NCBI RefSeq assembly: GCF_000337135.1
Contig: NZ_AOIN01000044.1
Span: forward strand, 1-64,000
DNA from: Natrialba chahannaoensis JCM 10990
Lineage (GTDB): Archaea; Halobacteriota; Halobacteria; Halobacteriales; Natrialbaceae
Direction of reading: 5' to 3'
DNA length: 64,000 bases
Each line of letters starts with the position of its first letter. The first letter of the stretch is position 1. The notes below the pieces were generated by a model. The model was given only the letters and a program-made list of their open reading frames with translations. It was not told the DNA's origin and searched no databases. Positions 11,491 to 51,843 of the stretch are shown in pieces. Both the position numbers and the translations under genes were made by a program.

Positions 11491-11989
11491 GGTGATCGCC
11501 CTCCGTCGAGCTGGTGTCCACTCCCTCGGTCGCCAGGCCCGACACCGTAATTGCTCGAATCTCGCCGGTTTCGAGGACCGCCCGTCGCCACTGGGGTGCG
11601 TCCATGTGGTCTCATCACCGACGACGCTGCGGGCGCGTTCCACCGTCGTCGCTCCGTCGTGCGGTCCGTCGTTCCCTGCACGCGCCTATTCATACCACAT
11701 ATCTAGCTGGGTGCAAGATGAAAGCTCTCCCGGTCGCTCCTGCGACTATAGTAGCCACTGCAAGTCACTGCACACCTGATCGCACGGCAGCTGTGCGATC
11801 AGTGTGTAACTAGTTGCAGTTGTTACTATAGCAACTCCGTGAGGCCACCCCCGTTCTTACTGTCACGGGACAGACCTGTCTCTCTCGTCTACACAAACCG
11901 TAGCAGAACGCGAAAATCGACGGCCGCACGACTGTCCAGGTTCCGACGCCGATCCCTCGAGACGATGGTGTCTCGAGTGACCGTGTCGA
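11491..11989. other. Non-coding stretch containing a hairpin element
   Basis: About 500 bp between the Tfx gene and the 3' end of the TRAM gene. Open frames here are short, basic and proline/arginine-rich and look like chance frames. The only structure seen is the 86-bp terminal-inverted-repeat element at 11746-11831, described separately. The rest holds nothing I can support. Confidence 0.6.
11746..11831. mobile_element. 86-bp palindromic element, copy 1 (MITE-like)
   Basis: The element begins CTATAGTAGCCACTGCAA and ends with the near-complement TTGCAGTTGTTACTATAG: 16 of 18 terminal bases pair. An inner stem CTGATCGCAC / GTGCGATCAG is perfect (10 bp) around a short loop. A second copy lies at 47055-47138 in the same orientation. 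Size, terminal inverted repeats and lack of coding capacity fit a miniature inverted-repeat transposable element, although a structured RNA is also possible. No target duplication is evident and no matching transposase is in the window. Confidence 0.7.
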
Positions 11990-47054: not shown

Positions 47055-47138
47055 CTATAGTAGCCACTGCAAGTCAGTGCACACCCAATCGTACGGAGGC
47101 TGTGCGATTGGTGTGTACATAGTTTCAGTTGTTACTAG
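47055..47138. mobile_element. 84-bp palindromic element, copy 2 (MITE-like)
   Basis: Same element as at 11746-11831, in the same orientation: it begins CTATAGTAGCCACTGCAAGT and ends TCAGTTGTTACTAG (two bases, TA, are missing from the 3' terminus). The inner stem is CCAATCGTAC / GTGCGATTGG; compared with copy 1, two base pairs have changed on both sides in a compensating way. The right end overlaps the last five codons of the sulfatase gene on the minus strand. Confidence 0.7.
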
Positions 47139-48603
47139 ACCGATCGTCGCCCATCTCTGGATGAATCAACTCCCAGTCGCTGGGGACGACCGGACCGTCG
47201 AGTAACGGATCGTTCGTCTCGATCATCCAGTCGACGAGGTCGTTCCGGAGTCGGTCGCAGATATCGGCGACGGCTCGATCTCCGTGCTGGTCGGGAGTTT
47301 CCACTGTGTCGGGTGTGTCCTCCAGTACGAGGTTCTCCTGCTCGAGCGGGTCTGCCTCGAGGTCGTACAGCTCCTCGTAGGCACGCTGATCGCCGTAGTA
47401 CTCCTCACGGACCTCGCGACCGGCGGCGCTGCAGTAGATATCTGTCGTCATGTAGACGTTGGGCAGGTGCCAGAAGTTGCGTATATATTTCCAGCGCTCC
47501 GTTCGGATCGCTCGCATCGGGTTGTAGCGATCGTGCCAGGTCATGCCGGCGAATATGCGGTCACGGGGCTCGTACTCGTCTGGTTCATGATCGCTGTTGC
47601 CGTCGCTTTCGCTCCTATCGGTCCCACTTCCCTCGCCACCGAACAACAGCCGTGTAAACTGTTTCCCAGCAAGCTGTGTCTCCGGCACCGGCGCGTCGGC
47701 AATCTCGAGAAGCGTCGCGAACACGTCGACGTTGCTGATGAGATCGTCAACCGTCCGGCCGCCGTCAATTTGCGATGGATAGCGCATGAGCAGGGCCGCT
47801 TCGATCCCCGGATCGAAGCAACAGCCCTTCGCACGCGGCATCGCCAGCCCGTGCTCGGTCGTAAAGATGACCAGCGTCTCGTCCGCGACGCCAACCCGAT
47901 CGAGCGCCGCAAGAACTGTTCCCGTCGCCTCGTCTAATGCATCCAGCATCCCGTTGATTTCGGCAATATCCGAGCGGATCCCTGGCTCATCCGGCAGGAA
48001 CTCGAGTGGGGCCACGTCCTCGGGGTCCGGTGCGTCATACCGGTCGGCCTCGAAGCCGAAGCCGCCGTTTTCCTCGACGCGATGGAGTTCGAAGAAGCCG
48101 ATCGAGGCGAAGAACGGCTCGCGGGACTCGTCAGTTTCATTGGTCCCGTCGGTCTCGAGTACGGACGCGAACTCGTCCGCGACGGCCTTCGCACGGGCGG
48201 TTTCGTGGACGGCCGGCGACGCCTCGACGGTTAGCGGCTGTTCGGTGTGAATGTGGTCATAGCCGAGCTGATCGGGGTACTCGGTGATATGCTGGAGCCC
48301 GAAGAGGTGGGTCTCGTAGCCAGCGTCGCCGAGCAGGTCCGGCAGGACGCGCTCGTCCGGACGGAGCTCCCAGTCGGCGTGAGCGAGGCCGAGCATACCG
48401 TTCTGGTGGGGATAACGGCCAGTGAACAGACTCGCCCGACTCGGTGAGCACTGGGGGGCGGTGACGAAGTGCCGGTTGAATCGGATGCCGTCGGTGGCGA
48501 GGCTATCAATATGGGGGGTAGCGACATCGGCTCCGTAACAGCCCAGATACGTCCCGAGGTCGTGGCAATGGACGAGAACGATGTTCGGACGGTCGCTGAT
48601 CAT
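47125..48603 (-). CDS. Sulfatase with formylglycine-type motif
   Basis: A 492-residue type I sulfatase fold protein without a signal peptide. The motif is QCSPSRASLFTGRYP; Cys52 is the residue that is normally converted to formylglycine. DRPNIVLVHCHDLG carries the first metal ligands, and FTTEHGLAMPRAKG the later ones. A hyperacidic insert (DRSESDGNSDHEPDEYEPRD) is seen near residue 330. The last residues SSNN and the stop are supplied by the hairpin element at 47055-47138. It is divergent from the second sulfatase-fold gene. Substrate unknown; probably a sulfated sugar. Confidence 0.9.
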   Translation of the reverse strand: MISDRPNIVLVHCHDLGTYLGCYGADVATPHIDSLATDGIRFNRHFVTAPQCSPSRASLFTGRYPHQNGMLGLAHADWELRPDERVLPDLLGDAGYETHLFGLQHITEYPDQLGYDHIHTEQPLTVEASPAVHETARAKAVADEFASVLETDGTNETDESREPFFASIGFFELHRVEENGGFGFEADRYDAPDPEDVAPLEFLPDEPGIRSDIAEINGMLDALDEATGTVLAALDRVGVADETLVIFTTEHGLAMPRAKGCCFDPGIEAALLMRYPSQIDGGRTVDDLISNVDVFATLLEIADAPVPETQLAGKQFTRLLFGGEGSGTDRSESDGNSDHEPDEYEPRDRIFAGMTWHDRYNPMRAIRTERWKYIRNFWHLPNVYMTTDIYCSAAGREVREEYYGDQRAYEELYDLEADPLEQENLVLEDTPDTVETPDQHGDRAVADICDRLRNDLVDWMIETNDPLLDGPVVPSDWELIHPEMGDDRSSNN

Positions 48604-48780
48604 GCAGGTGGGATACATCGAGCGGCTGAGTAAGCGTTCGGACGTGATACAGGCCGTGAATGTTCCTTCCAGTCGAATGTCGACAGGTTCGATACGTCGT
48701 ATGTGGCATCACGATATCGTGAATCACCTGCACGTTCCGGGCTGGTAACCTTCCCCACGTGTGGCGGAGCATTGTCAACC

Positions 48781-50650: not shown

Positions 50651-51843
50651 ATGTCTGCGAACGAACGCAGCGCCGACGCAAGCGCCACCGTCGGCGGCTT
50701 CGGAACCTTCTTTCGAAACTATACGAAGACGTGGATCCACACCGTCGCAACGGTCGGTCTCACTGCCTTCGGGACACTGACGTTCGTTCACCGCTGGTTC
50801 GCCGCCCTCGCCTTCGCCTCGTACCTTCTCCCGCCAGTCATCCTCTACATCCGCTGGCGCAGACAGGCCGGAGAGCTGGACGCCTTCTCGGCGCACTCGA
50901 GTTCCTCTCAGTCCGAGACGGACTCCGATGACGCTGCGTCGGAGGCTGACCACACCGTTTCAGACGCCGCCGATCGCGCCGATCAGCGGACAGACGAGTC
51001 TGATCAACGGCGTGCACTCGAGTCTGAACCCGAATCCGTCTCCGATCCTGAACCCGAGACTGAATCTGCACCTACGTCTGTCTCTGGGTCTGGCACCGAG
51101 TCTGACGCCAGATCTGAAGCTGTTTCTGCGTTCGAAACTGTGCCTGAGTCTGAGGTCGAGCCTGAGCCCGAGTCTGAGCCCGAATCACAGAGTGACGACG
51201 ACCCCGAGGAACGGCCCTCACCTGACCGATGGCGACTCCAATCGTCACCAGTCGATGCGACGTTACACGATGTCATTGTCACCGACTCCGGCCGCAGCTA
51301 CGCGGTAGGTGACGGCGGTGTCGTCCTCGCGTCCGGCGACGAGTGGGAGACCGTCCTCGACGATGGGCCTGGCGCTTCCGGTGCTGACCTCTTCGGCGTC
51401 GACGCAACCGACGACGGTGGCGCGGTCTGGGTCGCTGTTGACATCCTCCCCGCCCTGAAGGGCGAGGATTCCCGCGTTGGGATATTGTGGTTTACGACGT
51501 GACCCGTTCTTGAGGTGCGAACGCACCAGTTTCCTTGTCAAACAGGAACGTCGATGGCTGTGCCAACCAGCCGTTACTCCTATCGCCGTCCTCAGAACGC
51601 TTCGCGTTCTGATGTGCGGACGAGACGCTTTGCGTCTCGTCAACGCCATCTGTAGCGTGACTCGGAGATACTTTCTGTCGAATATTCTCAGCACCGTTCA
51701 CATCCGCGTTCGCCTGGTCCGCACTCGATAACGCGTCCGATGCGCTCGACTCCGCCGATAGTGGTGGCCTACTGGCGGTTTCGATCGGTGCCGGTCGCTG
51801 TATTGCAGTGGGTACCGACGGAACGATCATCAAACAGGGTTGA
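50651..51843 (+). pseudogene. Membrane-anchored propeller-type protein interrupted by a TnpB relic
   Basis: The 5' part (50651 to about 51439) encodes MSANERSADASATVGGFGTF, one or two membrane helices (about 30-75), a very acidic Ser/Glu/Pro linker (about 80-185) and the start of a propeller-like domain with BNR/YCF48-type blades (SYAVGDGGVVLASGDEWETV). After a 283-bp insertion the sequence resumes at about 51723 with AVGTDGTIIKQG, the kind of ending expected for the last blade, and a stop at 51841. The frame is not maintained across the insertion. The gene is therefore probably broken. A GTG start at 50600 is also open. The original role is unknown; it lies in the surface-modification cluster. 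Confidence 0.7.
51440..51722 (-). mobile_element. Relic of an IS200/IS605-type element: TnpB C-terminus and right end
   Basis: On the minus strand, 51722-51492 encodes a TnpB C-terminus: DQANADVNGAENIRQKV (zinc-finger tail), then GDRSNGWLAQPSTFLFD, ending APQERVTS and stop. The rest of TnpB is missing. Beyond the stop lies the typical haloarchaeal right-end hairpin CCTCCCCGCCCTGAAGGGCG (51445-51464). Other hairpins are at 51514-51527, 51594-51610 and 51619-51641 (10-bp perfect stem). The omega/re-RNA of such elements is made from this region. It is inserted in the propeller gene. Confidence 0.8.

Follow-up and report, generated by a model that had tools for sequence, protein, structure and literature searches.

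The stretch of DNA analysed here, referred to as the window (64,000 nucleotides, G000:C44:1-64000, of Natrialba chahannaoensis JCM 10990), contains two nearly identical copies of a short palindromic element, at 11746-11831 and 47055-47138, both present as described in the initial annotation. The copies are real, but their limits need refining, as the element proper is 80 bp long. In copy 1 it occupies 11749-11828 and is flanked, within C-TA...TA-G, by the duplicated TA dinucleotides (11747-11748 and 11829-11830). Copy 2 spans 47058-47137 and lacks the right-hand TA. The following features could be assigned (window positions and strand).

11746-11748, plus strand: C and TA, left half of the CTAG target with the TA duplication (flank statistics; empty site)
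11746-11763, plus strand: left terminal inverted repeat, target base included, TATAGTAGCCACTGCAA type
11749-11828, plus strand: MITE copy 1, element proper, 80 bp, ends set by the TA duplication and CTAG target
11770-11785, plus strand: inner stem left arm, CTGATCGCAC and the 5 pairs below, with a bulged C at 11775
11786-11792, plus strand: hairpin loop GGCAGCT; equivalent loops are inverted in place in other copies
11793-11807, plus strand: inner stem right arm of copy 1
11810-11813, plus strand: internal CTAG, the site of IS630 insertion into MITE copies elsewhere (L073; probably L074)
11814-11831, plus strand: right terminal inverted repeat; the other strand reads TATAGTAACAACTGCAA
11829-11831, plus strand: TA and G, right half of the CTAG target (flank statistics; empty site)
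47058-47137, plus strand: 80-bp element proper of MITE copy 2, belonging to the CCAATCG stem subfamily, without the right-hand TA duplication
47085-47094, plus strand: inner stem left arm of copy 2, CCAATCGTAC
47102-47111, plus strand: inner stem right arm of copy 2, GTGCGATTGG
47125-47137, minus strand: right end of copy 2, forming the last codons and TGA stop of a 497-aa ORF at 47125-48618 (codons read by eye)

Pairs are numbered 1-86 along the 86-base stretch of copy 1. The terminal inverted repeats of 18 bp pair as previously reported except for one mismatch (C11/T76) and one G.T pair (9/78), leaving 16 of the 18 pairs Watson-Crick, and are conserved across the family. The inner stem consists of 15 pairs and one bulged C. 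Two of its pairs are indeed altered on both sides with pairing kept in copy 2 (T32-A56 to C-G and G33-C55 to A-T), while C38-G50 has become T.G by a one-sided change that is also visible in the stem comparison of the initial annotation. Neither a transposase nor any other coding frame of use is present within the 80 bp, in agreement with the earlier reading. The ORF at 47125-48618 on the minus strand is a sulfatase-like gene that ends inside the right end of copy 2. In relatives the reading frame terminates at the TAG contained in the CTAG site, so the insertion of copy 2 appears to have replaced the stop codon of this gene.

Counting copies in this genome and its relatives revealed a dispersed family rather than two copies only. 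The genome itself gave 45 BLAST matches, corresponding to about 43 copies, and N. magadii has the element at about 90 places; a pattern search of the latter (G003) gave 97 forward and 94 reverse end matches, and none with a reversed-pattern control. The element was found in 29 of 61 relatives and, using a covariance model, in 76 of 243 sampled genomes of the order (each species being represented by a single genome), with named hosts including Natrialba, Natronorubrum, Natrinema, Natronococcus, Haloterrigena and Halostella. It also occurs in 50 plasmid records (203 places, mostly between annotated genes), which are haloarchaeal among the matches listed. No phage carries it, and viral contigs gave no exact match. 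Its end sequences were not found in the literature, and MITEs are not mentioned in the genome paper of N. magadii. The element thus belongs to a mobile family of 80-bp non-coding sequences, of which haloarchaea can carry dozens of copies.

Larger versions with common ends measure 126, 192-210 and 378 bp, none of them with a transposase. In the 126-bp version, found in the Natrialba chahannaoensis genome at L104-L109, L116, L117, L119 and L122, the loop holds a second hairpin (GCGCGGTTC...GAACCGCG) and the outer stem is unchanged; at L104 this version is inserted within another MITE-like copy. The 378-bp version (L111:211-586) has tandem GAGCGAACGAAGTGAGTGAGAACCGCG-type repeats inside the hairpin and includes one N, so that part of it may be an assembly join. 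Doubled or tandem copies split by a single N (L009, L110, L112-L115, L118, L121) are probably scaffolding joins at repeat ends, by which the copy counts are slightly inflated.

A search for target duplications and empty sites, as the initial annotation had suggested, identified CTAG as the target, with duplication of TA. Most copies sit in C-TA[TAGTAG...GTTACTA]TA-G, with C before the element in 178 and G after it in 170 of 223 cases (a set that included some duplicated rows). For the copy at G000:C14:43548 a clean empty site, CTGCTAGGAAG, was recovered in N. magadii, where the sequence reads uninterrupted as CTGTCTGCTAGGAAGTTTCGGG; this implies that one CTAG became C-TA-element-TA-G. The copy at C96:49338 breaks a gene frame that is uninterrupted in several relatives. 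For window copy 2, GCTAGCGG is found at the matching right flank in three relatives, the left flank having diverged; for window copy 1 no clean empty site was recovered, its flanks being too diverged. Adjacent elements at L032 have one TA in common. The element thus displays the properties of a MITE: it is short, lacks a transposase gene, has terminal inverted repeats and dispersed copies, duplicates its target, and has empty sites in relatives.

Comparison of the ends with IS elements, likewise proposed beforehand, showed that the outermost end bases, the target and the duplication match those of IS630-family elements of the same genomes. IS630-family transposases are present in many of the MITE-carrying genomes. 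The IS630 elements at L073 and L074 are 1055 bp long, also lie in CTAG, and have a left end TATAGTAGnCGTTAGAA and a right end TATAGTAACCGTTAGAA, with terminal bases TATAGTAG.../TATAGTAACC... Between MITE and IS630 ends 13-14 of 19 bases match, 8-9 of them at the tip including TA, and both kinds of element have a left/right end asymmetry in common. The proteins encoded at L073 and L074 match NF033545 and PF13358; the split of their transposase into overlapping frames, of 179 and 163 aa, points to a possible programmed frameshift. In one clear case (L073:1429-2483) an IS630 element lies inside a MITE copy, at its internal CTAG. At L074 an IS630 element has probably inserted likewise, with N joins on both sides. 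Given the rarity of CTAG in haloarchaea, IS630 elements may use MITEs as landing sites.

An autonomous element with precisely the MITE ends was found neither among pattern pairs 0.2-3 kb apart in a set of collected loci nor among the matches listed for the genome itself and N. magadii. An end pair 1141 bp apart in L073 was rejected as an autonomous parent, being an IS630 element inside a MITE. Since target, duplication and outermost end bases match resident IS630-family elements, we consider the element likely to be an IS630-type MITE. As no autonomous element with its exact ends was recovered, this assignment goes no further than likely, and the mobilising transposase would be of the IS630 family judging from these shared features.

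The compensatory stem changes are genuine, as they exceed chance both within the genome and across haloarchaea. In the genome itself 24 double-changed cells were counted, against 6.2 +/- 2.0 in shuffles. Across 162 distinct haloarchaeal sequences the inner stem has 129 cells with double Watson-Crick changes (shuffle mean 42, maximum 56; 16-32 double-changed cells in slid stem registers), and 93% of inner-stem cells are paired. One explanation would be plain subfamily inheritance, in which one or two old double changes were copied by transposition; many cells do descend from few subfamilies, and covariation counts sequences, not events. It is nevertheless very improbable, given that all four Watson-Crick types are represented at pair 32-56 (TA 81, CG 46, AT 2, GC 2), that a tree, though one of poor support, requires 29 or more changes between the paired states of this pair, and that several further pairs (16-71, 33-55 and 39-49) covary.

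The tempo of single versus double changes was judged from neighbour pairs and tree counts. In 42 disjoint pairs of near-identical sequences, 1-3 changes apart, 24 of 77 changes fell in the inner stem (31%; the inner stem makes up 30 of 84 positions) and none was compensated. New single-side states comprised 12 G.U and 11 A.C, and over all cells 72 and 63, respectively; compensated doubles were seen only at a distance of at least 4 changes. As stem changes roughly follow the share of positions, none is compensated, and G.U equals A.C, resident copies are not visibly under selection for the fold. The initial annotation had argued that the compensatory changes imply a fold that matters, for transposition or as an RNA, and had named beforehand many further copies with uncompensated stem changes as evidence to the contrary; such copies are what was found, and its argument is not supported, since uncompensated changes are common and marks of template switching (see below) are present.

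The RNA variant of that argument holds that a folded transcript is selected as a terminator, attenuator or mRNA stabiliser. The long hairpin has strongly negative predicted folding energies, and known bacterial MITEs form such transcripts (PMC2229807, PMC3049150). A stem in a one-strand RNA, however, should favour G.U, and the near-equality of G.U and A.C in both the cell counts and the recent changes favours no RNA strand and argues against a selected RNA fold. With resident copies showing no constraint and no Rfam match to the element in a search of the window, we regard an RNA role as highly unlikely. The sole Rfam match in the window lies elsewhere (51447-51673, minus strand) and is a strong one, of 167.6 bits, to sot0042, a sense overlapping transcript RNA. 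RNAs of the sot0042 family are usually linked to IS605-type tnpB genes.

Selection could instead act during transposition if the inner arms were needed to form a DNA hairpin or a cruciform, or to provide a second pair of inverted transposase sites, so that only lineages with intact pairing keep spreading. Across families most sequences retain the pairing, the tree shows recurrent compensated doubles at pair 32-56 (independent pairs give 5.8 the same way and 0 opposite, p about 0.03), and for pairs 25-37 the states present at more than 10 insertions are all paired (three Watson-Crick, one G.U). Identical multi-copy sequences also have fewer mismatches (0.2 vs 0.57, p = 0.07). Yet mismatched stem variants have reached 7-9 insertions, three insertions are recorded for one identical sequence that carries two mismatches, the centre can be inverted or enlarged (126-bp and 378-bp versions) without loss of mobility, and the doubles can be explained by arm copying without selection. 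We hold this possibility to be unlikely. A comparison of how far stem mismatches and loop variants are shared (p about 0.01-0.02) was set aside, as it was driven by transversions.

A different origin of the paired changes is suggested by rearrangements inside the palindrome. For four hairpin centres both orientations are present, as 17-base sequences that are exact reverse complements (CGCCAGCCTGCTCGGCG, CGCACGACAGCTGTGCG, CGCCAGACTGATCGGCG and CGCCAGACGAATCGGCG), with 8 matched cores against a mean of 0.08 and a maximum of 2 in loop-letter shuffles. Outside the centre, the sibling N. magadii copies C1:2172498 and C1:2160740 are identical, and a single inversion accounts for their 7 differences within it. 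In four copies (L149, L063, L224 and L297) the whole interior is flipped between the ends; L149 and L224 are clear flips, whereas within each of L063 and L297 the ends do not differ, which leaves their orientation undefined. Homogenised ends, both of the left type, define a sub-lineage in 20 of 125 family genomes, the usual end pair being found in 54 of 125. The copy at G003:C1:2575875-2575958 combines a left end of C type, a right end of A type and an inverted centre; it is a mosaic of two subfamilies and suggests that different insertions can be copied onto one another.

Homogenised arms and inverted spacers have been described as signatures of template switching at inverted repeats (PMC8604942), which has also been proposed as a source of compensatory changes in RNA stems (PMC8794818). 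With these signatures present, compensation can arise without selection, and importance of the fold does not follow from it. We propose, and consider probable, that the element is a non-autonomous foldback MITE of IS630/Tc1-mariner type, and that template switching between the arms, and not selection for the fold, is mainly responsible for keeping the near-perfect palindrome and for its paired changes. A transposase supplied in trans, probably from an IS630-family element, would recognise the terminal repeats (TAGTAGCC.../TAGTAAC...) and mobilise the element for insertion at CTAG with duplication of TA. After insertion the copy would drift with its stem unconstrained. When DNA polymerase switches template between the arms, the sequence of one arm would be transferred to the other, so that a single lineage acquires changes on both sides; sometimes such switching would also invert the loop, or the entire interior, at its site. 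The paired substitutions in window copies 1 and 2 would have arisen in this way. Arm-to-arm recombination is a mechanistic alternative for the inversions with the same consequence.

Three observations count against this proposal. First, an autonomous element with identical ends was not recovered in the searches described above. Secondly, arm copying should erase the bulged C30 and the G25.T62 pair, yet most copies retain both. Thirdly, selection on mobility would also give all-paired frequent states in pairs 25-37 and fewer mismatches in multi-copy sequences. A combined scheme, in which template switching supplies the changes and selection on mobility keeps them because haloarchaeal IS630-type transposition requires the inner hairpin (a DNA hairpin or paired internal binding sites), strikes us as rather unlikely.

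Compensatory changes are usually taken as proof of a functional fold. Here, in a family of hundreds of non-coding copies, compensation occurs alongside in-place inversions and arm homogenisation, and this co-occurrence implies that template switching alone can plausibly produce it. The family is a natural assay of archaeal template switching, and it calls for caution where RNAs in mobile repeats are sought by covariation.

Among resident elements, the haloarchaeal IS630-family elements (L073, L075, L076) resemble the MITE in their end bases (TATAGTAG/TATAGTAAC), CTAG target and TA duplication, but are about 1055 bp long, encode a transposase in two overlapping frames and differ in the inner end bases (CGTTAGAA against CCACTGCAA). 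The SMR repeats of Haloquadratum walsbyi are likewise haloarchaeal, of 80-110 bp, with prominent inverted ends and high copy number, but reportedly neither duplicate their target nor have transposon-like ends, and SMR-A elements prefer IS605-type targets (PMC3119063). Identification of the element as an SMR was rejected on its TA duplication and IS630-like ends, given the SMR definition (PMC3119063). Correia/NEMIS elements of Neisseria have terminal repeats, 5'-TA ends, target duplication and a long stem-loop (PMC2229807), but are longer, of other sequence, and have reported promoters and an IHF site. RUP of Streptococcus pneumoniae (107 bp, IS630-Spn1 ends) is short and non-coding, with about 100 copies, a foldback structure with paired ends, a TA target and ends resembling a resident IS630-family element (PMC2229807, PMC3049150); it differs in being bacterial and unrelated in sequence, and no covariation or centre inversion of RUP was found in the literature. 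The element is probably a foldback MITE of IS630 type, similar in kind to RUP, in which copying between the arms has left an unusually clear record.
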